A stretch of DNA of 64,000 nt from Candidatus Saccharimonadota bacterium (GTDB lineage: Bacteria; Patescibacteriota; Saccharimonadia; Saccharimonadales; Saccharimonadaceae). Made by a program: the position numbers and the translations under genes. Under the pieces are notes generated by a model, which worked only from the letters and a program-made list of their open reading frames with translations, was not told where the DNA came from and made no database searches. Below, in pieces: positions 3,075-34,235 of this stretch. The first letter of the stretch is position 1; each line of letters opens with the position of its first letter. Location: positions 62,001-126,000 of the forward strand of contig WRHN01000002.1 of assembly GCA_009783235.1 (NCBI GenBank), read 5' to 3'.

Positions 3075-3136
3075 CAGTAACGCTTACGCTCAAAAAACTC
3101 TAAACTCTAGCGTTTTGGCTAAGGTACAATATAAAT

Positions 3137-4039
3137 ATGGAGAGTTTGACGGTGAGTCTTATCTGTTTAGTTTTTGGGGCGATAATTATCGTGATTTTGT
3201 GTCGCGTGGCTTTTGGCTTGAGCCTCGCTACCCTGTTTAAAAATCACTTTTTTTGGCTGAGCTTGGCCTGTTTGGCTGCTCTGTTGCTCTATATTATTTA
3301 CAGCCCTGTGGCTGCGCAAGCTAAAACTTCTGAAAACACTGCTGAGTTGCCCTTGCCGCCCAGCGATACACCGCCACAGCAAGACAACTGGGAGGTATTA
3401 GAGGCAGAACTTCAAGGTTTATATCAAAACGCGAATTACGCTATTTACGCCGAAGATCTAACTGATGCTTCGCGCAAAATTCTGGTAAATGCCGAAACGG
3501 AGATGCCGACCGCCAGCGTTTATAAATTGGCCGTGGCTTATTCAATGTTGCGCGCAGTTGCGGCTGGCGCTAGTTGGAATTCGCTACTTTGGAATACCAC
3601 GCTGGAGAATTGTTTTGACAAAATAATTATTGAGAGCAATAACGAATGCGCTCACGCCTGGGGTGATCAACACGGCTGGCGCGCGGTAACTAGTGAGTTT
3701 GCCGAGCTCGGATTGCATATTAACCTTTACGGGCAAACCTCTGCGACCGCTAAAGATATTGCTGGATTTCTCAAAAAGATTTATCGCGGGCAAATTCTCA
3801 ATGACGGGCTAATTGACAAATTGATGAATGCTATGAAGGCGCAGCGGTATCGCCAAGGTGTTCCCGCCGGTGCGCCAAGCAAAACCGTGGCGAACAAAGT
3901 CGGGTTCATGAACGAGGTGCTTAACGACGCCGCAATCGTATTTGGCCCGAGCGGCAACTATGTTTTGGTCATATTTACTAAAGGTTATTCGTGGGATTCT
4001 ATTGCCAAGACCGCTGAGCTGATTGATGAAAGCTATTAA
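3137..4039 (+). CDS. Membrane-anchored serine beta-lactamase-like protein (class A fold)
   Basis: A 300-residue protein with two hydrophobic segments at the N-terminus (about 5-30 and 38-60), then a Pro-rich linker and a domain with the three landmarks of class A serine beta-lactamases/transpeptidase-like enzymes: S127-x-x-K130 (SVYK), S167-N-N (the SDN position) and K254-V-G (the KTG position). In the family, Ser is the nucleophile and Lys the base. It could hydrolyse beta-lactams or act on peptidoglycan. Because it is tethered to the membrane and the SDN and KTG boxes are altered, a cell-wall role is as likely as resistance. A TACAAT -10 at 3125-3130 lies 6 nt before the ATG. It is divergent from the P-type ATPase. 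Confidence 0.78.
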   Translation: MESLTVSLICLVFGAIIIVILCRVAFGLSLATLFKNHFFWLSLACLAALLLYIIYSPVAAQAKTSENTAELPLPPSDTPPQQDNWEVLEAELQGLYQNANYAIYAEDLTDASRKILVNAETEMPTASVYKLAVAYSMLRAVAAGASWNSLLWNTTLENCFDKIIIESNNECAHAWGDQHGWRAVTSEFAELGLHINLYGQTSATAKDIAGFLKKIYRGQILNDGLIDKLMNAMKAQRYRQGVPAGAPSKTVANKVGFMNEVLNDAAIVFGPSGNYVLVIFTKGYSWDSIAKTAELIDESY

Positions 4040-4198: not shown

Positions 4199-4242
4199 GC
4201 CCCCGACAACCCTGTAGAAATACAGGCGCGTCGGGGGCTTTT
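4199..4242 (+). terminator. Rho-independent terminator downstream of tRNA-Gln
   Basis: A nested hairpin. The outer stem GCCCCCGAC/GTCGGGGGC is at 4199-4207 and 4230-4238, the inner stem is CCTGTA/TACAGG, and it is followed by CTTTT. Orientation of the T-tract fits termination of the tRNA transcript. Confidence 0.75.
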
Positions 4243-4264
4243 CCCTGTTCCAAAAAATTTATCG

Positions 4265-6901
4265 CTACAACCATTCGCCAAACTTCTTAATGTAGATTCT
4301 TTTTGTTGTCTCAATCGTCAAAGCATACCCAACCAGCAACAACAGTAACCAAGCGGCGAAAGTTAGCGGCAATCTCATCATATCAAGAGCAGCGCCAACG
4401 CCAGTAAAGCCGATTACCAAAACCAAAACCGCGACCACTAACGTCGAGAGCATCAACGGTTTTGATGCAATGCTTTGGACGAAAGATTTTTTGGCTGTTC
4501 TAATAATGTGAATTATCAACACCTGAGAAACTACGCCAAAGACAAACCACCCGCACTGGAAAATCGGCGCCAATTCGGTGGTGTTCGCTTTAATAATAAA
4601 GAACAAAATTATAAAACAAAGAATGTCGAAAATCGAGCTAATTGGCCCTAAAATATACATGAACCTTTTGATGTCTTTGGTGTCCCACTTTTTTGGTTTG
4701 CGGATAAAGTCTTTGTCAACATTATCAAACGGAATGCCGAGTTGCGACAGGTCGCAGAGTAGGTTTTGCGCCAGAATATGCAGCGGCAACATCGGCAGAA
4801 ACGGCAGAAACATGCTAGCGATTACTACCGAAAACATATTGCCAAAATTTCCGCTTGTCGCCATTTTAATGTACTTAATTATATTACCGAAAGTTTCGCG
4901 ACCCAATATAACTCCATGCTCTAACACTAGCAAATCTTTTTTGAGCAATATAATATTGGCGGTTTCTTTAGCGATATCGACCGCGTTATCAACCGAAATG
5001 CCAACGTCAGATTGCTTCAGCGGCAACGCATCATTAATACCGTCGCCCAAGTACCCTACCGTGTGGCCATTCCCCTGCAATGTTTTAACTACCCTTTCTT
5101 TTTGCGACGGCGAGAGTTTATAAAAAAGACTGCAAATCTCAACTTCGGCCTTAAGCTCCGCGTCGGTCATATTTTCAACTTCTGTGCCAGACAAGGTTAC
5201 CGCCGCGTCTATGCCAACTTTTTGACAAACAATCACCGCCACACCCTCGCTATCGCCAGTCAGAACAATATTCCTGACGCCGTGAGTCTTGAGCGCCTTG
5301 ACCGCTTTTTTGGCGCTCTCTTTTGGCGGATCCAGAAAACCAATAAACCCCACAAAAGTCATGTCGGATTCGTCTGCGACACTGTACGATTTATCAGCAG
5401 AAAAATTCGTTTCTTTTTCGGCCACGGCTAATATTCTAATGCCCTGGCTGGTGTATTTTTTATAAACAGCCTCGGCAGCAGCCCGAGTTTTTTGGTCAAA
5501 AGTCCGAACTTTATCACCATATCTCACATGTTCACAAACGGCAATAACTTCCTTGAACGAACCCTTGGTCACCATGTGTGTGTCGTGGTTTTGATGAGCC
5601 AGTACTACGCTGATTCTGCGGCGACTAAAGTCATAAGGAATCTCGTCAACGATTTGATATTCACCCGCAAAATCGTCTAGCTTCTCTGCGCTGCCGCGCG
5701 CCATAATCGCCTGGTCTATCATGTTTTTTAAACTGGTGCCAAAATGACTATTCAAATATGCCTGCCTCAGAACCGCCTCATCTTCATTGTCATGTATGTT
5801 CAAATATTTTTCCAAAACCACCTTATCTTCAGTCAAAGTACCAGTTTTGTCCGTGCACAAAATATCCATCTCGCCAAACGCCTGAATTGAACCGACACTT
5901 TTGACTATAACTTTTTGTTTCGACATTTTAACAGCGCCTGTTGCAAGCGTCGTGGTAAAAATCACTGGCAGCATTTCTGGAGTCAAACCCACAGCAATCG
6001 CGATAGCAAACAAAATCGAATTAACCAGGCCAACGTTCGTCAGCACGTTAATCACAATTATGATTGGGATCATAATCAACATAAATCTTATCAGCAGTTT
6101 GCTGATAGAATCTACGCCTTTTTCAAAATTGTTCTTGGGCGTTTTATTCGACAAAGATTTCGCCATGGAGCCAAAATAAGTGTCATTACCAGTCGCCACA
6201 ACAACCGCCGTAGCAGTGCCGCTAATGACGTTCGAACCCATAAACCCAATATTCGGTAAGTCGGTGGTGGCACTATTTTGAGCGTCAATTGGATCGCTGA
6301 ATTTTTCAACTGGATTCGATTCCCCCGTCAAAGCCGCCTGCGCAATAAACAAATCTTTCGTAGTTAAAAATCGAACGTCGGCTGGAATCATGTCCCCGGC
6401 GGCCAATTTTATGATGTCGCCGACCACAATTTCTTCCATTAATATTTCAGAAAACTCACCGTCTCTTCTGACACTGGCGGTGTTCACAATCATTTTTGAT
6501 AATTTTTCTGCTGCTCTGTTGGATTTTTCACCCTGTATAAAAGAAACCAAGCTGGCCGCCAAAACTAGTCCCAATATGATGGTGAAAGTTAAATAATCTG
6601 GCTCTGCTGCGAACACCACGTCAGTGAAAAAAGTGATTATAGCTACAGCGATTAAAACCATATTGAAAGGATTGACGACCGCTCTGAGCAATCTTCTAAG
6701 CGTGGTGTCTTTGTTGGCAATGGTGATGATGTTGGGGCCGTTTTCTTCTATTTTTTCTGATGCTTGATGGGCGGTCAGCCCGTCATCACTAGAAGATAAT
6801 TTTTTATACAAATTGTCTGGACTGGAAACACTATGCTGTCGCAAAACTGTTTCCGTTGAATCTTTTTTCGCGCCAATCTTTTTCGCAGACAGAATTTTCA
6901 T
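4265..6901 (-). CDS. mgtA: Mg2+-importing P-type ATPase (P3B)
   Basis: An 878-residue P-type ATPase with hallmarks of the MgtA/MgtB subfamily: LTGES in the actuator domain, TPEMLP in M4, CTDKTGTLTEDKV with the phosphorylated Asp near residue 348, GYLGDGIND in the P domain, and the C-terminal NLLCDLSQLGIPFDNVD segment that distinguishes Mg2+ importers. Expected role is uptake of Mg2+ across the cytoplasmic membrane driven by ATP. Length matches the family (about 860-910). The RBS-like AGGGG precedes the ATG. The leader is only about 40 nt, and I see no M-box or other Mg2+ riboswitch in it. The gene stands alone. Confidence 0.93.
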   Translation of the reverse strand: MKILSAKKIGAKKDSTETVLRQHSVSSPDNLYKKLSSSDDGLTAHQASEKIEENGPNIITIANKDTTLRRLLRAVVNPFNMVLIAVAIITFFTDVVFAAEPDYLTFTIILGLVLAASLVSFIQGEKSNRAAEKLSKMIVNTASVRRDGEFSEILMEEIVVGDIIKLAAGDMIPADVRFLTTKDLFIAQAALTGESNPVEKFSDPIDAQNSATTDLPNIGFMGSNVISGTATAVVVATGNDTYFGSMAKSLSNKTPKNNFEKGVDSISKLLIRFMLIMIPIIIVINVLTNVGLVNSILFAIAIAVGLTPEMLPVIFTTTLATGAVKMSKQKVIVKSVGSIQAFGEMDILCTDKTGTLTEDKVVLEKYLNIHDNEDEAVLRQAYLNSHFGTSLKNMIDQAIMARGSAEKLDDFAGEYQIVDEIPYDFSRRRISVVLAHQNHDTHMVTKGSFKEVIAVCEHVRYGDKVRTFDQKTRAAAEAVYKKYTSQGIRILAVAEKETNFSADKSYSVADESDMTFVGFIGFLDPPKESAKKAVKALKTHGVRNIVLTGDSEGVAVIVCQKVGIDAAVTLSGTEVENMTDAELKAEVEICSLFYKLSPSQKERVVKTLQGNGHTVGYLGDGINDALPLKQSDVGISVDNAVDIAKETANIILLKKDLLVLEHGVILGRETFGNIIKYIKMATSGNFGNMFSVVIASMFLPFLPMLPLHILAQNLLCDLSQLGIPFDNVDKDFIRKPKKWDTKDIKRFMYILGPISSIFDILCFIILFFIIKANTTELAPIFQCGWFVFGVVSQVLIIHIIRTAKKSFVQSIASKPLMLSTLVVAVLVLVIGFTGVGAALDMMRLPLTFAAWLLLLLVGYALTIETTKRIYIKKFGEWL

Positions 6902-21764: not shown

Positions 21765-22640
21765 TTATTTTTTGGACTTCAAAAACTTTCTAATGTCCGC
21801 CGCGTAATCTTCATTATCGAGAACATATTGTAAATGTGTGGTGAAGTAGTTTTTGGGGTCGCCCGTAGTCATCCACCGCCCCTTGGTTTTCTCAACGTAA
21901 ACTGAACCTTTGGTGGCCATGCGCGTGATAGCGTCAACCGTCCACAGTTCGTTGTCCAGTCCCGTGTTCTTCGGCACTAATTCATCAAAGACTTCTGGCG
22001 TCAGCAAATACCGACCATACGAAGCGAGCGCAGACGGAGCCTTGTCCACTTCTGGTTTTTCGACAATATAATCTAATCGATTACCATTCTTTAGCTGAAA
22101 AATACCGTATCTAGAAACTTCTGTTGGTGCAATTTCTTGCGCCATGACCACGCCGCGCGCATCTGGATGTTTATTAAAACTGTCCACCAAAGTTTTGACG
22201 TCGCTACTGCCAAAAACCAAATCGTCCGAATATAAAACTACAAACGCTTCGTCGTCCTGAATATAGTCCCGCGCCGAAGCAATGGGTGAACCGTTGCCGT
22301 ACGGCAAAGACGGATCCTGAGTGATAACAGTAATTTTAGGAAAGTCCAGCACTTCTTGCACCGCCGAATAACGCGCGCCGTTACCATGGGCAATTAATTG
22401 CTTGCGCACATGGTTGACCGAATTGTTAAAATAGTCCTCGTAAATCGGCTTGCCTTCTGGCGTCGCCACAATAATAATGTGCTTGATCCCTGCCTCTACG
22501 CACTCTTCTACGCAAAACTGCATAATCGGACGGTTGCCAATCGGCAACATGCCTTTTGGAATAGTCTTGGCGATTGGTAGATAGCGTGATGCAAAACCAG
22601 CATCTGTTATGATGGCTTTAGTTGGTGACTTATATTTCAT
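21765..22640 (-). CDS. galU: GalU-like UTP-glucose-1-phosphate uridylyltransferase
   Basis: A 291-residue sugar nucleotidyltransferase. The N-terminus (KAIITDAGFASRYLPIAKTIPKGMLPIGNRP) aligns with GalU, and IQEVL-like (VQEVLDF), PYGNGSPI, VLYSDD and IVEKPEVDKAPS also match. In GalU the first loop reads GxGTR; here it is GFASR, keeping the Arg but replacing the Gly and Thr, so nucleotide specificity could differ. It supplies an activated sugar such as UDP-glucose for surface polymers. The RBS AAGGAGG lies 6 nt before the ATG. TGGTAAAAT (22665-22673) is the promoter, just beyond the terminator of the repeat cassette. Confidence 0.85.
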   Translation of the reverse strand: MKYKSPTKAIITDAGFASRYLPIAKTIPKGMLPIGNRPIMQFCVEECVEAGIKHIIIVATPEGKPIYEDYFNNSVNHVRKQLIAHGNGARYSAVQEVLDFPKITVITQDPSLPYGNGSPIASARDYIQDDEAFVVLYSDDLVFGSSDVKTLVDSFNKHPDARGVVMAQEIAPTEVSRYGIFQLKNGNRLDYIVEKPEVDKAPSALASYGRYLLTPEVFDELVPKNTGLDNELWTVDAITRMATKGSVYVEKTKGRWMTTGDPKNYFTTHLQYVLDNEDYAADIRKFLKSKK

Positions 22641-22664
22641 TATTCCTCCTTGCTTTATAACTCA

Positions 22665-22673
22665 ATTTTACCA
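22665..22673 (-). promoter_or_regulatory. Extended -10 promoter of galU
   Basis: TGGTAAAAT on the minus strand, about 25 nt before the ATG. It lies right after the terminator at 22682-22707, so galU is transcribed separately from the cassette upstream. Confidence 0.5.
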
Positions 22674-22680
22674 CACAAGT

Positions 22681-22707
22681 AAAAGGCCTCGTAAGAACGA
22701 GACCTTT
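22681..22707 (-). terminator. Terminator closing the repeat-rich RNA
   Basis: The minus-strand RNA forms AAAGGTCTCG-TTCTTA-CGAGGCCTTT, a ten-pair stem with one G-U pair, followed by TTTT. The G-U pair becomes a mismatch on the plus strand, so the orientation is minus. It marks the end of transcription through the repeat region. Confidence 0.7.
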
Positions 22708-22847
22708 ACATTTACCTACGCCAGTTTCCTGGCCTGTGCTGCGCGCCACGTTGCTTGACCATGATGCTGTGCCGTTGCTTCGCTTTGCCTCTACACCACG
22801 GTGCGTCGCGTTGCTTTGCCTTTGCCGTGTTGTGCTCCGCTTCGCCA

Positions 22848-22882
22848 TGCCATAGCGGTACTTTGCGTCACACTGCCGTTGC
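22848..22882 (-). repeat. Long direct repeat B, copy 1
   Basis: An imperfect 35-nt repeat with its partner at 23045-23079. The minus-strand core is CGCAAAGTACCGCTATGGCA preceded by GCAACGGCAGTG; the two copies differ mainly in three bases between those blocks. Copies are 197 nt apart. Confidence 0.8.
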
Positions 22883-22946
22883 ACTGCCATACCAGACAAT
22901 ACCCCGCTCCGCCTTTGCTGAGCGTTGCCCTGCCATTGCTGTGCCC

Positions 22947-22969
22947 TGCTTCACACTACCACGCCTTTG
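22947..22969 (-). repeat. Long direct repeat A, copy 1
   Basis: A 23-nt repeat with its partner at 23180-23202. The minus strand reads CAAAGGCGTGGTAGTGTGAA in this copy, with GTT in place of GTG in the other. Copies are 233 nt apart, so A and B together outline a duplicated unit of roughly 200-230 nt. Confidence 0.8.
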
Positions 22970-23044
22970 GGCTGCCATGCGTTGCTGTGCCGTGCCTTTG
23001 CTGTGCACTAGTCTGCCACGCCGTTGCGGCGCTTAACTGAGCCC

Positions 23045-23079
23045 TGCCATAGCGGTACTTTGCGGCTCACTGCCGTTGC
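23045..23079 (-). repeat. Long direct repeat B, copy 2
   Basis: Second copy of the repeat at 22848-22882. Here the flanks TGAGCC and GGCTCA on the minus strand can pair and close a hairpin around the repeat core; copy 1 cannot form the same closing stem. Confidence 0.8.
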
Positions 23080-23179
23080 GATGCAGTACCTCACTAGGCA
23101 TAGCCTTCGCTATGCTGCACCCTGCTGTGCCTTTGCTTTGCCCCGCTATGTGTTGCATTGCCTTTGCAACAGTCCGCGG

Positions 23180-23202
23180 TGCTTCACACTACAACGCCTT
23201 TG
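23180..23202 (-). repeat. Long direct repeat A, copy 2
   Basis: Second copy of the repeat at 22947-22969, differing at one base. Confidence 0.8.
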
Positions 23203-23223
23203 CAATACTCCACCGCGCTAAAC

Positions 23224-23244
23224 AAAGCCGCGCCAAAGCGGCTT
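23224..23244 (-). terminator. Weak hairpin just after the RAMP-like gene
   Basis: The minus strand forms AAGCCGC-TTTGGC-GCGGCTT, followed by TGTTT. The broken T-run suggests partial termination, allowing read-through into the repeat region. It could also be a processing site. Confidence 0.45.
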
Positions 23245-23247
23245 AGG

Positions 23248-23862
23248 CTAATTCAACCGTTTGTACTCGTAATCGAACCTTCCATTGCCGGCATTGCGCC
23301 ACTGGCCGAAGCCGTGATGCCTGCCGAAGTCCAACCATTCTAGGAATAGCTGTTCATGTGCAGACTCAAGAAGTTCAACCTCAAACTCAACAGTACTACC
23401 GGGCGGAATAGACTCAGAACAAGCCAGCGCCACGCGCGGACCCTGGGCCGTTTCCGCCCTCAGCGGACGCTGACGCATCCCTACTTTGCTGCCTTCTGGT
23501 AGCACAATAGGGATATAGTCTGGCTCCACAAAAATATTCAAATCGATGACTTTTTTATAGGCCGTAAGATCCTTTGAAAGCGATTCTGGAATCCTGCGCA
23601 GAGCACTACAAGCTTCTTTGAAAAAGCCAGTGACCATGTATGCGCGTAGACAGCAGTTGCCGTTTTCGTCACGATAGAACACGCTAGTACCACGCTCGAT
23701 TTCCTCATTGACATTAAAACTTTCGAGATCTTTTAAGGTCTGTTCTTTAGTCGGAGCTTTAGTCGCCATGTAACTGGCAAACAACTCCTCGTCGTTCGGC
23801 TGAGAACCAAGTAACTCTTTGGTAAAAGTAATTTTCACCTGCAAAAACCGCGGCTCTTTCAT
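23248..23862 (-). CDS. Stand-alone protein with RAMP-type (Cas5/6/7-like) glycine-rich loop
   Basis: A 204-residue soluble protein. The C-terminal GFGQWRNAGNG (184-194) fits exactly the RAMP consensus G-x-G, five residues including Arg, G-x-G, the loop that binds RNA in Cas5, Cas6 and Cas7 proteins. The central YMVTGFFKEACSALRR (about 75-90) resembles the helix following the first strand of Cas7-type folds. IPPGSTVEFEVELL (about 152-165) looks like a RAMP-type beta strand. No cas1, cas2, cas3, cas10 or CRISPR array is nearby. The RBS AAAGGAAG lies 8 nt before the ATG. The gene has two candidate promoters with palindromes upstream and an unusual repeat-rich stretch downstream. I recall similar proteins in gut phages but cannot confirm that. 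RNA binding is an inference from the loop. Confidence 0.65.
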   Translation of the reverse strand: MKEPRFLQVKITFTKELLGSQPNDEELFASYMATKAPTKEQTLKDLESFNVNEEIERGTSVFYRDENGNCCLRAYMVTGFFKEACSALRRIPESLSKDLTAYKKVIDLNIFVEPDYIPIVLPEGSKVGMRQRPLRAETAQGPRVALACSESIPPGSTVEFEVELLESAHEQLFLEWLDFGRHHGFGQWRNAGNGRFDYEYKRLN

Positions 23863-23920
23863 TGTGGCTTCCTTTCTGTCGTAATCAGTAAATGTAATCT
23901 AAAAGTGCTAGACATCAAAG

Positions 23921-23927
23921 TTGTCAA
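23921..23927 (-). promoter_or_regulatory. Second -35 element of the RAMP-like gene, abutting a palindrome
   Basis: TTGACA on the minus strand (23922-23927) touches the end of the 24-bp palindrome. A -10 is less clear: TTTTAG or TTTAGA fall 17-18 bp downstream. A protein bound at the palindrome would contact RNA polymerase here. Confidence 0.4.
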
Positions 23928-23950
23928 GTCTTTCTATTAATAGAAAGACT
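23927..23950. promoter_or_regulatory. Perfect 24-bp palindrome, probable operator
   Basis: The half-site AGTCTTTCTATT is followed directly by its exact complement. It overlaps the adjacent 18-bp palindrome by 3 bp and abuts the -35 hexamer at 23922. It is likely a site for a dimeric regulator, or an RNA hairpin in the leader of transcripts from the upstream promoter at 24046. Confidence 0.6.
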
Positions 23951-23965
23951 CTGTAGCTACAGAGT
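23948..23965. promoter_or_regulatory. Perfect 18-bp palindrome, probable second operator
   Basis: ACTCTGTAGCTACAGAGT is fully self-complementary. It shares ACT with the neighbouring palindrome but has a different half-site, so two different dimers or two hairpins are possible. Confidence 0.55.
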
Positions 23966-24013
23966 AAAATATCACCTGCGGCCACCACACTTATAATGTC
24001 CTTATTGTGTTGT

Positions 24014-24039
24014 GTAGACTAGTTTTTTAAAAAGTCTAC
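24014..24039. promoter_or_regulatory. Inverted repeat at the predicted transcription start
   Basis: GTAGACT (24014-24020) and AGTCTAC (24033-24039) flank an A/T-rich centre. The right arm coincides with the start expected from the promoter at 24046-24074, a position where a repressor would block initiation. Confidence 0.45.
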
Positions 24040-24045
24040 GAGCTC

Positions 24046-24074
24046 ATTGTATCAATAATAATCTAAGTTGTCAA
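24046..24074 (-). promoter_or_regulatory. Strong promoter of the RAMP-like cassette
   Basis: On the minus strand a perfect -35 TTGACA (24069-24074), 17 bp, then TACAAT (24046-24051) preceded by TGA, giving an extended -10. It is the best promoter match in the window and sits just after the gatB stop. It gives a leader of about 180 nt containing the palindromes. Confidence 0.7.
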
Positions 24075-24078
24075 TATT

Positions 24079-25476
24079 TTAAACAATCTTTTGGCGGATA
24101 ATTTTCTGCACGATACCAGGGTTAGCCTGGCCCTTAGACGCTTTCATGACTTGACCAACTAGGAACCCTATGGCCTTGTCGTTGCCAGATTTTACATCAT
24201 CAACGGCTTGTTGAGCGGCCGGGTCACGCAAAACCTGGTCGATTATTTCAGTAATTTCATCTTCGTCATTACTCTGAATCAAATTCTTGTCTGTGGCAAT
24301 TTTACGCGCGTTTTTCGTGCCACCCAAAAGTTCCTTGAAAATCACATCGCCAGCATTTGAGTTAATTTCTGATGAACTTAGCATCTTCGCCAGCTCCACT
24401 AAGTCGGCTGTCTCGGGAATCTTAATATCTCCTTCGAACGATAGCCCCGCAAACATGTTAGCGATTTTTTTGGCCGGCTCTAGGCCTGAACTACTAAGTA
24501 CCTGGCTCACAGCTTCGGCGGTTTCTTGGTTAGATAAAATCACGTTCAAAACCGAGCTGTCGACTTTTAGATCTTTAAATTCCTGGCGATATTGCGCGGG
24601 CATTTTAGGAAAATCTTTTTGCAAATCGGCAATTTTTTCTTTTGACAGCACAATTGGCGGAATATCTGGGTCTGGCATATAGCGATAATCCTCTGCGTTT
24701 TCCTTTGAACGCTGCGACGTGGTAACGCCCTGATCGTCCAACCAGCCGCGAGTTTCTTGCACGACCTTACCACCACTTTCTAAAATTTCGGTCTGACGTT
24801 TAATTTCATAAGCCACTACCGCCTCGACCGAGCGAAAACTATTGAGGTTTTTTATCTCCGTACGAACCCCCAGTTTGTCAGAATCCGATATCGACACGTT
24901 AACATCAAATCGCATATTACCATGATATAAGTCGCCGTGCGTTACTTCAGCAAAAGTCATCAACTTGTGCAGCTCTTCAGCAAAAATGCGTGCGTCGGCA
25001 GCCGAATGAATATCTGGTTCAGAAACAATCTCAATCAACGGTGTTCCCGCACGATTTAAATCAACCAAAGAATGGTTGTCGTGATGAGTGAGTTTTCCGG
25101 CATCTTCTTCGAGATGCGCGTGATTGATGCGCACTTTTACACCACCGTGTAATTCTACCAGCCCCGCCAAAATCGTCGGCTGGTACATCTGCGAAATCTG
25201 ATAGCCTTTGGTCAGATCAGGATAAAAATAATGCTTGCGATCAAAACGCGAGACGTTAGCCACTTTTGCGTTCAGAGCTTTAGCCGCTCGCGCCGCCAGA
25301 CGCACTGCTTCCTCGTTCAAATACGGCAGCATACCCGGCAAAGCAAAATCAATTTCCGAAACTTTCGAATTAGGCTCTGCCTGGCGCGCATCATTGTCCG
25401 TGCGCGAGAACAACTTGGTTTTAGTCGCCAATTGCACGTGGCACTCAATGCCAATAGTCGGAACATATTTACCCAT
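24079..25476 (-). CDS. gatB: Asp-tRNA(Asn)/Glu-tRNA(Gln) amidotransferase subunit B
   Basis: A 465-residue GatB. VPTIGIECHVQL and RKHYFYPDLTKGYQISQ carry the catalytic-domain signatures for ATP-dependent activation of the misacylated tRNA, and HLEEDAGKL, DLNRAGTPLIEIVSEPD and TEIKNLNSFR follow. The C-terminal YqeY-like tail domain (VGQVMKASKGQANPGIVQKIIRQKI) binds tRNA. With GatC and GatA it makes Gln-tRNA(Gln) or Asn-tRNA(Asn) from Glu- or Asp-charged tRNA. The start overlaps the stop of the HEPN-like gene by one base (TAATG). It is the last gene of gatC-gatA-HEPN-gatB. Confidence 0.96.
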   Translation of the reverse strand: MGKYVPTIGIECHVQLATKTKLFSRTDNDARQAEPNSKVSEIDFALPGMLPYLNEEAVRLAARAAKALNAKVANVSRFDRKHYFYPDLTKGYQISQMYQPTILAGLVELHGGVKVRINHAHLEEDAGKLTHHDNHSLVDLNRAGTPLIEIVSEPDIHSAADARIFAEELHKLMTFAEVTHGDLYHGNMRFDVNVSISDSDKLGVRTEIKNLNSFRSVEAVVAYEIKRQTEILESGGKVVQETRGWLDDQGVTTSQRSKENAEDYRYMPDPDIPPIVLSKEKIADLQKDFPKMPAQYRQEFKDLKVDSSVLNVILSNQETAEAVSQVLSSSGLEPAKKIANMFAGLSFEGDIKIPETADLVELAKMLSSSEINSNAGDVIFKELLGGTKNARKIATDKNLIQSNDEDEITEIIDQVLRDPAAQQAVDDVKSGNDKAIGFLVGQVMKASKGQANPGIVQKIIRQKIV

Positions 25477-25904
25477 TAGAGCGCCCCCAACTCTCTTAGG
25501 CTACGTTTAAAAATCGCCAAAGCCTTGCGCGCAGTCATAACGTTCAATTTAAAATCTGCCTCATGCGCGACTTGATTGCGCAATTTATGAGCATACCAAA
25601 CATCGTTAATTTTGCTAAATTTATGGCTCGAAACTTTTAGCCGATCCCCCATAGTCACGCCTGGCGTACCAATCTGTTTCAAGGCCTTGTCGAGCAATTT
25701 ATCGGCCGCTAAAATCGCCATCTGCATGGTCGAGCCGTTGCTAGTATCCACAGAACTAATAATTTTCTGCCACTCCGCGCCATATTCTTTCTTATTCAGC
25801 GCGTCAACGTGTTTGCGAGTTGTTGATAAAAATATCAACATAAACACGCCCAGCAGAACAATCAATATCAAAGTTACCACTATCATCGGGCTCAAACTAA
25901 TCAT
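25476..25904 (-). CDS. Membrane-anchored HEPN-like protein within the gat operon
   Basis: A 142-residue protein from the ATG at 25904 (RBS GGAAGGAGC about 8 nt upstream; longer frames overlap gatA more). One N-terminal membrane segment (about 6-28) precedes a soluble helical domain. Near its end LRNQVAHEADF shows the RxxxxH motif (RNQVAH) typical of HEPN domains, many of which are RNases in toxin or defence systems while others only bind. The gene sits between gatA and gatB, overlapping gatA by 8 nt and gatB by 1 nt, so it is co-translated with the amidotransferase. A tRNA- or RNA-related role is suggested only by this position. Confidence 0.6.
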   Translation of the reverse strand: MISLSPMIVVTLILIVLLGVFMLIFLSTTRKHVDALNKKEYGAEWQKIISSVDTSNGSTMQMAILAADKLLDKALKQIGTPGVTMGDRLKVSSHKFSKINDVWYAHKLRNQVAHEADFKLNVMTARKALAIFKRSLRELGAL

Positions 25905-27894
25905 TTTTTGCTCCTTCCACTGACCTAGCGAAGCCGAGTAACGCCCCGTCATCTTTCATCCTACCAATAATCTGCACTCCTATCGGCAACCCATTCTTAT
26001 CAATACCAGCTGGCAGCGACAACGCTGGTAGTCCGGCCAAACTGGCCGGTGCAGTCATAATGTCTGCCATGTACATCTTGAGTGGATCAGCAATATTTTC
26101 ACCGATTTTGAATGCTGGCGTCGGTGCTACTGGCCCAATTAGAAAATCATATTCTTCGAATAGCTTATCAAATTCGCGGATCAGTAGTGTTCGAGCTTTT
26201 TGAGCCTGTAGATAATAAGCATCGAAATAACCACTGCTAAGCACATACGAGCCAATCATAATGCGACGCTTGTTCTCATCAACAAAGCCCTGATCGCGGC
26301 TACGACCATAGACCTCAGCCAGGGTTTTTGCGTCTGCTGCCCTTAGCCCATAACGTACACCGTCATAGCGCGCCAAGTTACTACTCAGTTCAGCTGGTGT
26401 TACAATATAATAAATCGGTAGAGCATATTTTGCCATTGGTAGACCTACCTCCTCAACTGTATGGCCAAGCTTTTCTAGCTTTGCTGCAAATTCATGTGTC
26501 CGATCAATAACTGATTGATCTACGCCATCGCCAATGAATTCTTTAGTCAAGCCGATTTTAAGCTTTCGTGACACACCGACAGTTTCGTCCTGGCTTTGGC
26601 TTAGAATTCTATCAATATCTTTAATGACTTTTTCAGTATCGTCAAACAAGACTCCCAACATTCCCAGCGCTGTCGCTGCATCGACATTTGCCTGACTGTC
26701 ATCAACAAAAATACATTCTTCAGGCTTCACGCCTAACCGTCGAGCAGCTAATTCGTAGATCTTCGGATCAGGCTTTACAAGTTTTTCCTGGAACGACAAA
26801 ACAACATCGTCGAAATATTTTTTTTCTTCTTCTGGTGTAAAATAAATTTCAAAAAGGCCAGGGGTAACGTTAGATAGTAGACCAATCTTGTAATTCTTTT
26901 TCCAATTTTCAATTGATGATAGAAACTTTTCATTTCGCTTCGCTTTGGATCTTGCACCTTGAATCTTTTGTAACATATCTTCCTGGTTGCTCCCAACAGC
27001 ATCCGCATATGTTTTTACGAACTGCTGAAACGTCCCCTCGCCCTTATCGAAAGGCTTGTGCATTTCGAATATTTCATTATGATGTTTTGGGTATAATTCG
27101 TCTAAATAATCCAGAATTCCCGTGCTCAAAACACCGAAACAATCGGTAATAATCGCTTTTATTCTCCTTTTACTAAAATAATTTGGAAATACCGTGCCAT
27201 CACGTCCATCAGGACCGGCCAGAATTTTACATAGTAACTCAACATCTTCGACGCTGCGAGCAATCGGGCCAACCACATCAGTACTACTAGCCATTGCTAC
27301 TACGCCGTAACGGCTAATCATACCATAAGTTGGTTTATAGCCAATTACACCGTTGAAGGATGCAGGCTGGCGAATTGATCCGCCAGTGTCGCTACCTAAC
27401 GCAAATGGCACAATACCACGCGCCACGACTACAGCCGATCCACCACTAGAGCCACCAGCGACCCTTGTTTCATCAACGGCATTTTTAGTCACACCAAAAG
27501 CGCTGTTCTCAGTCGATCCGCCATGTGCAAATGAATCTAGGTTAGACTTACCTATACAGATAGCACCTTCTGCTTCTAATCGCTCAATTGCCGTAGCCTG
27601 AAGTGGCGCCTCAAAGTTCTCCAACATTTTGCTAGCAGCCGTAGTTTTACTGCCCAATGTAAGAAAATTGTCCTTGGCAATAAACGGTACACCTGCTAGT
27701 CGCCCAGCGTCCTTGCCCGCTACGATTTTTTGATCAATTTCATCAGCTCGCTTTAGTGCTCGTTCACGAACGATCTCTAAAATGGCATTAGTTTTGTCAG
27801 CTTCAGCACGAGAAATAGCAGCCTCGACTTCCGCGTGAGCCGAACTTTTACCGCTTTTAACGCTTTTTACTATGCGCAGGATTTCGCTACTCAT
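25897..27894 (-). CDS. gatA: GatA amidase subunit with inserted HAD hydrolase domain
   Basis: A 665-residue protein; typical GatA is about 480-490. Residues 1-238 and 432-665 together make a complete amidase-signature GatA. The catalytic Lys74, Ser149 (GGSSGGSA) and Ser173 (DTGGSIRQPA) and the C-terminal LPALSLPAG block are intact. Between them, residues about 239-431 are a HAD hydrolase: IITDCFGVL (motif I, nucleophile D251; the second Asp is replaced by Phe), LLSNVTP (S341), VKPDP (K374) and FVDDSQANV (D398, D399). The join is in frame, so one polypeptide is expected. GatA releases ammonia from glutamine or asparagine for the tRNA-dependent step. What the HAD domain acts on is unknown. Confidence 0.9.
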   Translation of the reverse strand: MSSEILRIVKSVKSGKSSAHAEVEAAISRAEADKTNAILEIVRERALKRADEIDQKIVAGKDAGRLAGVPFIAKDNFLTLGSKTTAASKMLENFEAPLQATAIERLEAEGAICIGKSNLDSFAHGGSTENSAFGVTKNAVDETRVAGGSSGGSAVVVARGIVPFALGSDTGGSIRQPASFNGVIGYKPTYGMISRYGVVAMASSTDVVGPIARSVEDVELLCKILAGPDGRDGTVFPNYFSKRRIKAIITDCFGVLSTGILDYLDELYPKHHNEIFEMHKPFDKGEGTFQQFVKTYADAVGSNQEDMLQKIQGARSKAKRNEKFLSSIENWKKNYKIGLLSNVTPGLFEIYFTPEEEKKYFDDVVLSFQEKLVKPDPKIYELAARRLGVKPEECIFVDDSQANVDAATALGMLGVLFDDTEKVIKDIDRILSQSQDETVGVSRKLKIGLTKEFIGDGVDQSVIDRTHEFAAKLEKLGHTVEEVGLPMAKYALPIYYIVTPAELSSNLARYDGVRYGLRAADAKTLAEVYGRSRDQGFVDENKRRIMIGSYVLSSGYFDAYYLQAQKARTLLIREFDKLFEEYDFLIGPVAPTPAFKIGENIADPLKMYMADIMTAPASLAGLPALSLPAGIDKNGLPIGVQIIGRMKDDGALLGFARSVEGAKND
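26602..27180 (-). other. HAD-domain insertion inside gatA
   Basis: This DNA segment encodes the extra HAD domain. It is bounded by GatA sequence DGTVFPN on one side and LKIGLTKEF on the other, where GatA proteins are normally continuous. At the upstream join the minus strand reads AAAAGGAGAATAAAAGCG, an RBS-like run followed by ATA in frame at the point where a free HAD gene would begin, which hints that a complete gene with its RBS was inserted. Confidence 0.75.
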
Positions 27895-28219: not shown

Positions 28220-31200
28220 CTAAAAGTCCGCGACGACCGTGTATCTGACCTGGGTGCTATAATTACCGCTCGGCAAAACGGCGTTGATGTTAGTGCCGTA
28301 AAATATCGCTGTACTGTCGCCAGTTTCATTGGCAGTATTGGTTGATTTAATCTGGATTGGCGAATTTAGCGGCGGCACCAAAGACCAAATTAGCGCACTA
28401 GCAGTTTGAGTAGGATTCAACGTGAAGCCCCACTGATTAATACCCAAAGCAGACGCCGTAGCAAAAGCAGGATCAAAAGTACCTATGACCGGGATGATAT
28501 TATCACTCAGGCTGGTGTGATTAAGATTAGAATGTCCCTTGAGCGTCTCAATCGACAACCTATAGCCGCTCGGGCTATTGGTCGCAGTAGTCAAAGCGTT
28601 GGAGGCCGTAGCAAAAGTACCAGCAGCACTCCCGTCAACAATGCCGTCTAGCGTGGAGTCATCAAGCGTAACGTTGACGCTGTCAAGATCTAGAGTTATA
28701 TAAATTTCTTCGTACAGAAAACCAGAGGTTACATTAGTTCTATCATCACCTCGCGCCTCGCCAGAATCAAGCATACCGTTACAAGCCGTACTATTAGCCA
28801 CGTCGCAAACTGCTGGCAAAGTGCCACTAATACCACCGACTTTTACCGTTACATCAACCAAACCAGGCACATGTGCCGAAGTTGTGCAAGTTAGCTCCGT
28901 ATCAGAAATAACCACGACATCAGTGCAAACCGCCGGCGTGCCGTTAATATCAAATATTACTGTAGGAGTTTGTTTTGGTAAACCAGTCGTGTCGATCGTT
29001 ACTGGCATGTAACTTACATACTCTTCGTCAAAATCGTCATCAACACCAAGTTCACCCTGATGATTTCTGCCCCAGCAATAAACTTTGTCGTTACTGCTAT
29101 CACTAGTGTTACCAGCGATAGCACATGTGTGGCCGTAGCCAGTTGAAGTTTGCTTTACTGATAGCCCATCCAGAAGGCCACTGGTATCGACCGCCACTGG
29201 GACGTAACCGTTATAAATGCCACCGTTATTCTGATCATAATCTACGCCGAGTTCACCGCTACCATTATCACCCCAACAGTAGGCTCGATCGACGTTGCTG
29301 TTATTGGCATTACCAGCAATAGCACATGTCTGTAAATAACCAGCCTCTATATGCTTAATAGTCAGACCGCTTAGTACGCCGCTAGTATCGACGGCTACCG
29401 GTAAGTATTCATAGCCGTAATAACCAGGAGTATTCAAATAATCTTTGACGCTGCCTACTTGTCCAAGCCCGTTATAACCCCAGCAATAGGCTTGGTTATC
29501 GCTGGCGATGACGCAGGTATGGTACTGGCCAGCAGTTACACTAAGAATAGTTTTACCAGCCAAAACACCACTGGTATCGACTGCCACTGGGACGTTGCTT
29601 ACAGAAGTTAAATCATTTTCACCTATACCAAGTTCACCAAGGTTATTACCGCCCCAGCAGTATACCTTATCGCTGTTACTGTCGCCCGCGTCCCCCGCAA
29701 CCACGCAGGTGTGAGAATAGCCGTGACCATCACCAACTGATATTTGTTTGACAGCAAGGCCGTTTAAGACGCCTGTGGTATCAACAGCAACGGGCTCGAA
29801 TTCATAGCCATCATAACCAGGAGTCTCATAATCTTTGCCGTTACCCAATTCTCCGCCATAGTTATAGCCCCAGCAGTAGGCTTTATCATCGCTGGCGATT
29901 ACACAAGTATGATTAACGCCCGCTGATATTTGCTTGACGGTTAGACTACTTAGCGGCCCGGTAGTACCGACGGCTACTGGTTCGTAACTTTCATTGATAC
30001 CCGTCTGCCAATCATTGTCGACACCCAGCTGGCCGTTCCAATTGGCTCCCCAACAGTAGACTTTGTCGTCGCTGGTATCATTTGCGTTGCCAGCAATGGC
30101 GCAGGTGTGGTAAGTTCCAGCTGAGATTTGTTTGACGAACAGGCCATTTAATAAACCGCTGGTATCGACAGCTACTGGGACGGTGCTCATATAAAAACCA
30201 CCGTTATTCTCATCATAATCTACGCCAAGTCTGCCACTGTAGTTGGAGCCCCAACAATAAGCTTTACCGTCGCTGGTGATGGCGCAGGTATGATTACCAG
30301 AAATTCCAACTCCAGTTGAAACCTGCTTCCACTCAAGATCTCGCTCAAACCCCGATCCAGTGATAGTTACGCTCGTGCCACCAGCTTCGATGCCGTAATT
30401 TGGTGTGATGGACGTGACGGTTGTCGGTTTATAGTATGTATAAGCGTATGGCAATGTCGCAGTTTGATTACCAATATCGACCGATACGTTTACTGAACCA
30501 GCAGCGTGAATCGGAGTCGTACAAGTCAGTTTGGTGTCAGAAACCACCACTACGTTGGTACAAGGTGCACCGCCCAAAGTAACGCTTGGGGGAACAATTT
30601 GTGAACCTTGCTCAAACGCCTCACCGGTAATGGTAACCTGTTGCCCACCAGTAATCGGCCCTCGGTCTGGCGTAATCGCGGTAACAATCAGCGGCCTTTC
30701 GTACTCATAAGCAGAATTCAGGCTAGCGCTGGGCGGGGTTGGATCATTGTTGTTAACCGATACCACAATGTTGACGAAGCCAGGACTGTGCGCTGGCGTT
30801 ACGCAGGTTAACTCGGAATCTGACACAATGGTTACATTTGTGCACTCCAAGCCGTCCAATTTCACCGTCAACTCCACACCTGGCTTGCTACTGCCAAACA
30901 CACCCGAACTGTCGACTGGTACCGGCACAAAACTCTCATACAAATAGTCGGGATCGCCTGCATTAAGGCCGATCTCGCCATAACTGTTGCTACCCCAGCA
31001 GTAGATCTGCCCGTCGCTGGCAATAGCACAAGTGTGATTATAACCAGCTGAGATTTGCTTGGCAGTTAAACCACTGAGAGCGTCGCTGGTGTCAACAGCC
31101 ACTGGCATGTAGCTTGTACCATTACCACCAAAATCGTCATCAACGCCCAGTGTTCCACTCCAGTTGGCTCCCCAACAATAAGCTTGGTCGTCGCTGGCGA

Positions 31201-34180
31201 TGACGCAAGTATGCTCCCCACCACTCGAAATTTGTTTGGCAGTTAAACCACTCAGGGCGTCGCTGGTGTCGACAGCTACCGGTTCGTAACTTTGGTATGT
31301 GCCAGTACTGTAATCGTTATCAACGCCTAGTTGGCCGCTCCAGTTAGCTCCCCAACAGTAGACTTGGTCGTCGCTGGCGATGACGCAAGTATGCTCCCCG
31401 CCACTCGAGATTTGTTTGATAGTTAAACCGCTCAGGGCGTTGCTGGTATCAACGGCCACTGGTTCGTAACTTTGTGGTGTGCCAGTATCGTAATCGTTAT
31501 CGACACCAAGTTGGCCGCTCCAGTTAGCTCCCCAACAATAAACCGCGTCGGCAGTGGTGTCATTCGCGTTGCCAGCAATCACGCAAGTGTAATCATGGCT
31601 AGCTGAGATTTGCTTGACGATTAAACCGTTCAAAACACCGTTCGTATCAACTGGCACCGGCACGAAACTTTGATAACTGTTATCGAAATCATCATCAACA
31701 CCCAACTGACCGCTTCCGTTATACCCCCAACAATAGGCTTGGTCATCGCTGGCGATAGCACAGGTGTGATAATAACCACTAGCCGAAATTTGCTTAATAT
31801 ATAAACCGCTGAGGGCGTCGCTGGTGTCAACAGCCACTGGCAAGAAAGATTGGTAATAATAAGGAGTATCAGAAACATCAGCACCCAACTGACCGCTTCC
31901 GTTATACCCCCAACAATAAGCTTGGTCGTTGGTGTTGTCGCCCGCACTACCCGCAACTGCACAAACATGGTTGTAAGCAACCGCCACCTGCTTAATCACC
32001 TTGCCGTACAGCGGACTGTCCAAGGTATCGCTCAGCACTGGCTTGTATTCGTCGTTGTTCCAAGAACGAGTGCCGTTGCCAAATTGTCCATAATAATTTT
32101 TACCCCAGCAATAAAGTCGATTGTCTGTGGTGATTCCGCAACTAATACCCTGATTAGCTGCAACTTGTTGCCATTCCGCACCGTAATCATATTGCTTGAA
32201 ACCACTGCCGTTCACCGTAATAGTTTGTCCGCCCGCTATTGGTCCTGAACCTGGAGTTACCGCAGTAACAGCCAGCGGGATATATTCGTAAGCACCAACC
32301 AACACCTGAGTTTCGCCGTTAATAGTAACCGAGACATCGACCACGCCAGCCGAATGTGCCGAAGTAACGCAGGTTATTTCGGTGTCAGAAATTGGCCTGG
32401 CACTGCGGCAAGGTTCGCCACCAACCGTAACTTCTGGAGTGGCTCGCGGCATGTTAATCGGCGTCGGCGACCAGTCATAATCATCGCCAAAACTCAAACC
32501 CTCATACTTCAGATAATCAACGCTGTAACCCCAGCAATACAACTGTTGATCGCTGCCCAATATACAACTGGCGTAATATCCTCCAGCTTCTATTTTGCTG
32601 GATGTTACGCCGTTTGGCAGACGGCCAGTGTCCACTGCTACAGGCACCGAACTCCTTTCAATAAATCCAGGATCACCACCCCAAGGTTCATAGCCCAGCC
32701 CTAGTTCACCTTCCCTGTTATCTCCCCAACAGTAGGCTTGGTCGTTGGTGTTATCATTGGCGTTGCCGGCGATGGCGCAGGTGTGTCGGTTGCCAACTGA
32801 AATATACTTCACCACCAACCCGCTCAAAACGCCACTGGTTTCAACGGCAACCGGCAAAAACTCCACGCCATCATAACTGGGGGCATCGTCTTGATAGCTT
32901 TTACCGTTACCCAATTCACCAAAATCATTATAGCCCCAACAGTAGGCTTGATCGCTGGTGTTATCATTGGCGTTGCCAGCGATAGCACAAGTGCGTTCAT
33001 TCCCAGCTGAGATTTGCTTGACGATTAAACCGTCCAGGACGTCGCTGGTATCGACGGCCACCGGCACGAAACTTTGATAACTGTTATCGAAATCATCATC
33101 AACACCCAATTGGCCAGCACCGTTAGCTCCCCAACAATAGGCTTGGTCGTTGGTGTTGTCGTTGGCGTTACCAGCGATGGCACAAGTATGTTGAGCGCCA
33201 GCCGAGATTTGCTTTACCGTCAAGCCGTTCCATATACCGTTGGTTTCAACGGCTACCGGTTCAAGACTTTGATGAGTGCCAGTATAGTAATCGCCATCAA
33301 TGCCCAACTGTCCGCCGCCGTTATCACCCCAACAGTAAACTGCGTCGCTAAGATTATCATTCGCATTTCCAGCGATGGCGCAGGTGTGATAATAGCCGGC
33401 CGAGATTTGTTTTATGGTTAGGCCAGCCAAAACACCGTCAGTTTTAACAGCAATCGGAGTTATAACATATTCCCTGTCATAATAGTCATAATAATCAGTA
33501 CCGTCGCCCAATTGGCCGCTGGCGTTCTCACCCCAGCAATAAGCTTGGCCATCAGCCACGGCACAAGCGTGGGCGTGACCGCCAGAAATCTGTTCTACTT
33601 TGGCGCCGGACGGCATATCGCCCTGTTTCAGTGGATACAGAGTATACGAACCACTGTCGCCATACGGGTTTGAGTTAAAAATAGCACAGTAAATCTGTCC
33701 GTCCAGCATCAACGAACAGCTGTACCCGTCGTCGATGGTAGCCATCTGGTCGACACCAGCGTATTGCAGGAAATCCGTACCAGTAATCGTGATTTGTTGA
33801 TTGCCAGTGTCGGGGCCTTGATTTGGGCTAACTGTGCTGACATTCAAAGCTTGCGTAGCTGGAAACAGCGCCCAGAGTCCGACTAAAACCAGACACGGAA
33901 TAACGACGCTAGGCAGCAGTTGTAGAAGAATACGTTGATTTTTATGTTTTCTAACTAAGGCGTTGATGTCGATAACTTCGATCTTAAGCTTCGAACGAGC
34001 GTCTTTGAGTGAAGGATATAATTTGTATATACCAGAAGAGCGCGCTAAACCGCGCATCTTAAGGTGTCGACGAATGAACAGCATAAGCGCCACAGACAGC
34101 CCCAAAGCCAAGAAAACAAATAGCACTAGCAACAAGATTGGCACTTGCCTACCGAACATATCAATACTTACCCCTAACAT
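28220..34180 (-). CDS. Giant surface protein: three RCC1 propellers nested in IPT/TIG domains
   Basis: A 1,986-residue protein. Two membrane segments (about 13-36 and 84-107) precede a large external part. IPT/TIG domains start near residues 113, 635, 1165 and 1253. The first, second and fourth are each split: strands up to GTDF, GSGF and GSGF come first, then a seven-repeat RCC1 propeller (about 145-575, 660-1095, 1280-1735), then the second half of the IPT (for example VTVGGEPC...TEITCVTSAHSAG). The third IPT is uninterrupted. Most blades have HTCAI...YCWG with two cysteines, which suggests stabilising disulfides. The last 200 residues form a beta-rich domain (YSTQVRYTVVADF end). Binding to host or environment is an inference. 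Blade DNA repeats are nearly identical in places. The RBS GGAGGAGG lies 14-17 nt upstream; GTG at 34183 is an alternative start. Confidence 0.85.
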   Translation of the reverse strand: MLGVSIDMFGRQVPILLLVLFVFLALGLSVALMLFIRRHLKMRGLARSSGIYKLYPSLKDARSKLKIEVIDINALVRKHKNQRILLQLLPSVVIPCLVLVGLWALFPATQALNVSTVSPNQGPDTGNQQITITGTDFLQYAGVDQMATIDDGYSCSLMLDGQIYCAIFNSNPYGDSGSYTLYPLKQGDMPSGAKVEQISGGHAHACAVADGQAYCWGENASGQLGDGTDYYDYYDREYVITPIAVKTDGVLAGLTIKQISAGYYHTCAIAGNANDNLSDAVYCWGDNGGGQLGIDGDYYTGTHQSLEPVAVETNGIWNGLTVKQISAGAQHTCAIAGNANDNTNDQAYCWGANGAGQLGVDDDFDNSYQSFVPVAVDTSDVLDGLIVKQISAGNERTCAIAGNANDNTSDQAYCWGYNDFGELGNGKSYQDDAPSYDGVEFLPVAVETSGVLSGLVVKYISVGNRHTCAIAGNANDNTNDQAYCWGDNREGELGLGYEPWGGDPGFIERSSVPVAVDTGRLPNGVTSSKIEAGGYYASCILGSDQQLYCWGYSVDYLKYEGLSFGDDYDWSPTPINMPRATPEVTVGGEPCRSARPISDTEITCVTSAHSAGVVDVSVTINGETQVLVGAYEYIPLAVTAVTPGSGPIAGGQTITVNGSGFKQYDYGAEWQQVAANQGISCGITTDNRLYCWGKNYYGQFGNGTRSWNNDEYKPVLSDTLDSPLYGKVIKQVAVAYNHVCAVAGSAGDNTNDQAYCWGYNGSGQLGADVSDTPYYYQSFLPVAVDTSDALSGLYIKQISASGYYHTCAIASDDQAYCWGYNGSGQLGVDDDFDNSYQSFVPVPVDTNGVLNGLIVKQISASHDYTCVIAGNANDTTADAVYCWGANWSGQLGVDNDYDTGTPQSYEPVAVDTSNALSGLTIKQISSGGEHTCVIASDDQVYCWGANWSGQLGVDNDYSTGTYQSYEPVAVDTSDALSGLTAKQISSGGEHTCVIASDDQAYCWGANWSGTLGVDDDFGGNGTSYMPVAVDTSDALSGLTAKQISAGYNHTCAIASDGQIYCWGSNSYGEIGLNAGDPDYLYESFVPVPVDSSGVFGSSKPGVELTVKLDGLECTNVTIVSDSELTCVTPAHSPGFVNIVVSVNNNDPTPPSASLNSAYEYERPLIVTAITPDRGPITGGQQVTITGEAFEQGSQIVPPSVTLGGAPCTNVVVVSDTKLTCTTPIHAAGSVNVSVDIGNQTATLPYAYTYYKPTTVTSITPNYGIEAGGTSVTITGSGFERDLEWKQVSTGVGISGNHTCAITSDGKAYCWGSNYSGRLGVDYDENNGGFYMSTVPVAVDTSGLLNGLFVKQISAGTYHTCAIAGNANDTSDDKVYCWGANWNGQLGVDNDWQTGINESYEPVAVGTTGPLSSLTVKQISAGVNHTCVIASDDKAYCWGYNYGGELGNGKDYETPGYDGYEFEPVAVDTTGVLNGLAVKQISVGDGHGYSHTCVVAGDAGDSNSDKVYCWGGNNLGELGIGENDLTSVSNVPVAVDTSGVLAGKTILSVTAGQYHTCVIASDNQAYCWGYNGLGQVGSVKDYLNTPGYYGYEYLPVAVDTSGVLSGLTIKHIEAGYLQTCAIAGNANNSNVDRAYCWGDNGSGELGVDYDQNNGGIYNGYVPVAVDTSGLLDGLSVKQTSTGYGHTCAIAGNTSDSSNDKVYCWGRNHQGELGVDDDFDEEYVSYMPVTIDTTGLPKQTPTVIFDINGTPAVCTDVVVISDTELTCTTSAHVPGLVDVTVKVGGISGTLPAVCDVANSTACNGMLDSGEARGDDRTNVTSGFLYEEIYITLDLDSVNVTLDDSTLDGIVDGSAAGTFATASNALTTATNSPSGYRLSIETLKGHSNLNHTSLSDNIIPVIGTFDPAFATASALGINQWGFTLNPTQTASALIWSLVPPLNSPIQIKSTNTANETGDSTAIFYGTNINAVLPSGNYSTQVRYTVVADF
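31065..31530 (-). repeat. Near-identical tandem blade repeats inside the giant RCC1 gene
   Basis: Consecutive blades encoding GANWSGQLG or GANWSGTLG recur with a period of about 180-190 bp. Stretches of tens of bases match almost exactly between 31140-31260, 31320-31440 and 31500-31560. This level of DNA identity indicates recent duplication or gene conversion, unlike the diverged blades elsewhere in the gene. Confidence 0.75.
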
Positions 34181-34235
34181 CACAAAATATGGTTTACCTC
34201 CTCCGTTTTATTGTAGCAAAAACACCATTGTGTAT

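Follow-up and report, generated by a model that had tools for sequence, protein, structure and literature searches.

The DNA analysed here, a stretch of 64,000 nucleotides that we refer to as the window, comes from a Saccharibacteria genome of 678 kb in six contigs. Between gatB and galU lies a compact unit in which a RAMP gene is followed on the same strand by a long array of five-nucleotide repeats. In four relatives from the same family, galU is found ~30-50 nt after gatB, whereas 1438 nt separate the two genes in the window, so the 1.4-kb unit was inserted here. Its parts are as follows (the names vipr and vrRNA are taken from phage systems described below).

22641..24078, no strand: whole inserted unit, from gatB (24079-25476) to galU (21765-22640), as judged from the short gatB-galU gap in four family relatives
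24046..24074, minus strand: sigma-70-like promoter, TTGACA-17-TACAAT, extended -10 (preceding TG), 11/12 in a consensus scan
23927..23965, no strand: two adjoining leader palindromes, AGTCTTTCTATT/AATAGAAAGACT and ACTCTGTAG/CTACAGAGT, candidate operators or leader hairpins
23868-23873, minus strand: putative Shine-Dalgarno AGGAAG of the vipr-like gene, read from the sequence
23248..23862, minus strand: vipr-like gene for a 204-aa solitary RAMP protein with C-terminal G-loop GFGQWRNAGNG (homologs, AF2, Foldseek, profile match to SUSP1 Vipr)
22764..23240, minus strand: vrRNA-like array of 92 pentamers N-G-H-N-N, 477 nt (periodicity, HMM parse, statistics of gene association and strand across 206 loci)
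22710..22763, minus strand: non-repeat 3' stretch with a small predicted hairpin, CCAG-gaaa-CTGG; candidate vrRNA tail
~22680..22709, minus strand: terminator-like hairpin at the end of the unit, able to work in either direction (z=-4.2)

This layout agrees well with the initial annotation of the DNA, which had proposed a strong promoter, palindromes in the leader, a 204-residue ORF with the loop GFGQWRNAGNG near its C-terminus, a closing terminator and an absence of cas genes. The promoter, which is a match to consensus only, is the top-scoring site of the scan in the 21-26 kb stretch. The palindromes are a perfect one of 24 bp at 23927-23950 and one of 18 bp at 23948-23965, and the fold of the 5' leader has z=-5.1. 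For the terminator-like region (22655-22720), none of 200 shuffles was equally stable. No cas genes were found within the unit, and an Rfam search returned one tRNA and nothing else. The leader contains the palindrome TGTAGCTACA at 23952-23961, and two copies of it are also found near the other Saccharibacteria unit considered below (L006, ~3118-3175). Two further genes of the window have unusual domain structures. In GatA (25897-27894, minus strand; amidase E=1e-137), the amidase domain is interrupted at residues 245-411 by a HAD-hydrolase domain; several relatives lack this insert, and the two amidase parts are contiguous in the alignment. The second (28220-34183, minus strand) encodes a 1987-aa protein that has RCC1-type repeats, five TIG domains and a hydrophobic N-terminus, and that may be a large protein of the cell surface.

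Structure prediction and profile comparison both indicate that the 204-aa protein is a RAMP, as had been suggested from its loop. The AF2 model, built on an input alignment of 107 sequences, has a pLDDT of 88.5 and a pTM of 0.82, and its best Foldseek matches in the PDB are type VII Cas7 chains (E=1.3e-8) and Csm3 (9e-8), with TM ~0.6. A profile of homologs searched against the PDB likewise matches type VII Cas7 (E ~1e-4) and Csm4 (E ~1e-3), while no Pfam model matches the window protein. The earlier proposal would have failed on a fold with no ferredoxin/RRM-like core; the model instead matches type VII Cas7 and Csm3. We therefore have a solitary RAMP with an RRM-like core and a glycine-rich loop, unaccompanied by cas genes. 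Its closest viral match (45% identity) is named Cas system-associated RAMP protein.

The DNA downstream of the gene had been described as a repeat-rich noncoding stretch. Repeats are indeed present; the implied low complexity is not random, however, and the stretch parses as 92 pentamers. The self-match frequency of the noncoding stretch, read on the minus strand, reaches 0.43 at lag 5 and peaks again at 10, 16 and 21; in gatB the value at lag 5 is 0.22. The DNA beside the gene has this period of 5 in the window and in each of the first five homologous loci inspected, together with peaks at 10, 15-16 and 20-21, and gatB does not show it. A hidden Markov fit gives the unit N-G-H-N-N, in which G reaches 94%, and places a +1 insertion behind 16.5% of the pentamers. 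In the window array, an extra base occurs every 3-7 pentamers, mostly 5-7. These insertions are not random: 87% are followed by G and the preceding dinucleotide is mostly AA or GA. The +1 'RA+N|GGC' marks divide the array into segments that are mostly 5-7 units long. The statement that no regular spacer array is present must accordingly be corrected, since there is a regular array of 5-nt period with +1 insertions, and a periodic guide array is a better description of the RNA than a structured repeat. Comparison of near-identical segments finds differences at G in 5% of cases, at H in 13% and at each of the remaining three positions in 19-21%, for which the natural reading is a fixed GH, a variable NNN and a reset of G at the marks. 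Because position 1 of the pentamer varies as much as the NN positions, we write the consensus as GH/NNN and not GGY/NN. As a separate observation, two loci of the window type (L129 and L138) occur in one Porcincola intestinalis isolate genome; their arrays are irregular, and a two-segment unit recurs in them.

We then asked how often the gene and the repeats occur together. The homolog set comprises 206 loci, mostly from gut and rumen phages and Clostridia MAGs, and a tract was counted when an array of at least 12 pentamers lay at most 800 bp from the gene; 518 random places, none closer than 3 kb to the gene start, served as controls. Tracts adjoin the gene in 200 of the 206 loci and in 15 of the 518 control places, and 299 of 307 tracts are on the same strand as the gene, with 8 on the opposite one; the pairing is thus not due to chance. 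The tract is downstream only in 112 loci, upstream only in 55 and on both sides in 30; in L003 it lies upstream. Two of the 6 loci without a tract stop at a contig edge, and the other four (L146, L051, L252 and L019) have room on the contig and no pentamer tract within 800 bp of the gene. L146 comes from a Lokiarchaeota MAG. Small tracts at other places in the genome that contains the window fall in coding DNA and look spurious. The earlier suggestion that protein and repeat RNA form one unit in a common orientation is therefore upheld, and homologs that consistently lack the repeat stretch, which would have spoken against it, were not what we found. The proposed phage connection also stands: a query with the alignment recovered 384 relatives among IMG/VR viral contigs, where a scan with the single sequence had recovered zero. 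The family thus occurs mainly in viruses and proviruses, even though no phage genes adjoin the unit in the window. The homologs are surrounded by genes for phage replication and regulation (HTH, SSB, exonuclease); in the family clusters inspected, none of these is a constant partner, and no cas-like gene recurs as a neighbour.

A system of this kind has been reported, so the initial designation as undescribed does not hold. A 2026 preprint describes VIPR, in which a solitary phage RAMP is accompanied by vrRNAs; these consist of GGY/NN pentamers and use a gapped code to bind DNA (PMC13142463). The preprint divides VIPR into seven types and describes SUSP1 among the type II systems; it demonstrates for both SUSP1 and P. 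fulva that the vrRNA is expressed and co-purifies with Vipr, and for SUSP1 DNA binding by a 1-nt-skip code and repression. Other types have arrays that are staggered, their vrRNAs overlapping, and a repeat consensus related to this one, and an accessory vap gene is typical without being universal (PMC13142463). The window protein has only weak sequence similarity to SUSP1 Vipr, but the homology, while remote, is full length. An hhalign comparison of 110 homologs with SUSP1 Vipr gives E=4.5e-5 over nearly the full length, at a probability of only 69, and the sole PHROG match of the window protein is phrog_4652 (E=0.036, full length), the family to which SUSP1 Vipr itself belongs (E=1.4e-96). 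Applied to the whole SUSP1 genome, our lag scan finds tracts at four positions around a pair of genes, one of them upstream and the other three downstream, and these are the four vrRNA positions given in the preprint (PMC13142463). The adjoining RNA of the window is likewise made of tandem pentamers, with a consensus, NGHNN, that is related to GGY/NN and not identical to it. No vap gene is present in the window, and the family has no conserved neighbour. The two kinds of locus also meet on one phage contig (L086; IMGVR_UViG_3300013426_000044, 4202-6639), in which a gene with separate GGYNN guides is followed ~1 kb on by a window-type gene with punctuated arrays; the first gene appears to be canonical Vipr-like, going by its GICGIGEWR-type ending and GGYNN tracts, a reading of the sequence and not a profile search. 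Based on these data, we propose with a probability of about 0.87 that the window locus is a VIPR system: one-gene, phage-derived and RNA-guided.

The distribution of the family among hosts is consistent with rare horizontal capture. When 380 genomes from the phylum and 198 from the order, which are overlapping sets, were searched with the profile, only the window's own copy was returned, and among all Patescibacteria genomes searched by profile or protein only 2 have family-level matches. The other copy (in a family-level relative, G030) is 37% identical, has its own array and lies at a different site, adjoining genes that resemble khpA and rpsP. Rare matches, an insertion between gatB and galU and a second site in another genome all fit such a history.

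Several other explanations can be offered for the unit. It might be a VIPR captured from phage that is now an inactive remnant between gatB and galU, as the two family-level matches in Patescibacteria, the lack of phage genes nearby and the lack of any target found would allow. However, the ORF is intact, the promoter matches consensus, the Shine-Dalgarno and the terminator hairpin are in place, the array of 92 pentamers is unbroken and the second Saccharibacteria genome has an independent and equally intact unit elsewhere, and we regard decay as unlikely. We hold it slightly less likely again that the RAMP-RNA complex acts on RNA, as antisense or decoy, or merely packages its own RNA instead of binding DNA. 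The nearest solved relatives of the fold are type VII Cas7 and type III Csm3, which belong to RNA-targeting effectors, and the repeat consensus of the window family is unlike that of the tested type. Nevertheless, the array offers its variable positions with the same periodicity, and the only VIPRs tested bind and repress double-stranded DNA (PMC13142463).

The remaining two explanations conflict with the family as a whole. Weak matches to Csm4, Cas7 and Cas6 models and the RAMP fold itself could point to a solitary Cas5, Cas6 or Cas7 left over from a degenerate class 1 CRISPR-Cas system. This is very improbable, as the unit has neither the cas genes nor the repeat-spacer array of class 1, and hundreds of homologs share the two-part layout, in clusters whose inspected members show no constant cas-like neighbour; the conserved layout contradicts such an origin. 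Short ORFs cross the tract, as they might if it were ordinary low-complexity or coding DNA that happens to lie beside the gene. A period of 5 does not agree with codons, and together with the tract's presence in 200/206 loci and the strand bias of 299 to 8 it contradicts that reading, to which we give next to no weight.

For the VIPR reading that we prefer, a mechanism can be outlined. The Vipr RAMP would polymerise on the pentamer-repeat RNA with one subunit per 5 nt, both components being made from the same promoter. In each pentamer the protein would grip the near-invariant G and the constrained H, leaving the hypervariable bases exposed to pair, with gaps, with the DNA of competing phages or plasmids; the complex would in this way block transcription with no nuclease. 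The punctuation (an extra base per ~5-7 pentamers, then GGH) probably marks guide or processing boundaries. By analogy with the tested VIPRs, the window locus would be expressed, its protein would bind the RNA, and a comparable reading rule would define its targets. A more specific version, which we offer tentatively and consider rather less likely than its alternatives, is that the family has a distinct code: GH/NNN with three variable bases, in a continuous array where the +1 base and GGH restart split the guides, which may overlap or else be read blockwise. This format would have spread among Clostridia phages and entered Saccharibacteria chromosomes on two occasions.

No target emerged from our searches, and DNA targeting at the window locus is accordingly something that we infer by analogy. 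The only high scores from decoding across local loci (3.2 Mb counting both strands), then by seed-and-extend, were those of repetitive arrays (L064, L070 and L084), of overlapping copies of a single contig (L056/L159) and of a match of an L010 guide to L126. The last is the best 1-nt-skip case, with 27/30 letters, and is not significant once AT-rich composition is considered; it lies where an ORF of non-phage appearance begins, within AT-rich host DNA, and may have arisen by chance. An all-against-all comparison of guides at skips of 0-3 over 243 loci (3.3 Mb, own-genome DNA included) found no rule that scored above shuffled guides. In IMG/VR, exact matches to one window guide and one gut-phage guide had flanks at chance level, and another window guide had zero exact matches. 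In ~390 Saccharibacteria genomes, one window guide had six matches, no more than a backwards control, and the other had one, with flanks at chance. As these searches covered at most a few Mb of local sequence and, elsewhere, exact matches or one guide at a time, the missing targets are weak evidence against targeting.

VIPR, whose targeting code is gapped, is proposed to be a sister group of the CRISPR RAMPs that resembles their ancestor. The window places it in an ultra-small epibiotic, that is tiny parasitic, bacterium, as a 1.4-kb unit between two core genes, with a unit at a different site in a second genome, and through this locus a large family from gut phages is defined, with repeats in a format unlike the tested one. 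The kind of system is already known (PMC13142463), while the repeat format and the host may be new. GH/NNN, the punctuated array and the absence of vap set it apart from the tested type, and the supplement of the preprint may cover these features. The number of bases read per pentamer, three versus two, and the role of the punctuation would show how flexible the code is.

Comparison with known systems places the unit closest to VIPR. The type VII CRISPR Cas7 proteins (9j9e, 8z4l) and type III Csm3/Csm4 share its RAMP fold and G-loop; they belong to multi-gene operons with CRISPR arrays and a 6-nt Cas7 spacing, none of which the window unit has. TIGR-Tas systems, named for their tandem interspaced guide RNAs, are also phage-associated and built on short tandem repeats, but Tas proteins carry a Nop domain whereas the window protein is a RAMP. 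The SUSP1 VIPR is alike in its solitary ~20-kD RAMP with a C-terminal G-loop, its minimal locus, its phage association and its adjoining same-strand RNA of tandem 5-nt repeats with a fixed G and hypervariable bases. It differs in having GGY/NN rather than GH/NNN repeats, separate ~100-nt vrRNAs with tails rather than one continuous punctuated array, a vap1 gene that the window unit lacks, and a phage location, whereas the units of the two Saccharibacteria sit between core genes. As for the other VIPR types, the punctuated continuous array of the window could be exactly the staggered layout of overlapping vrRNAs that the preprint ascribes to them.
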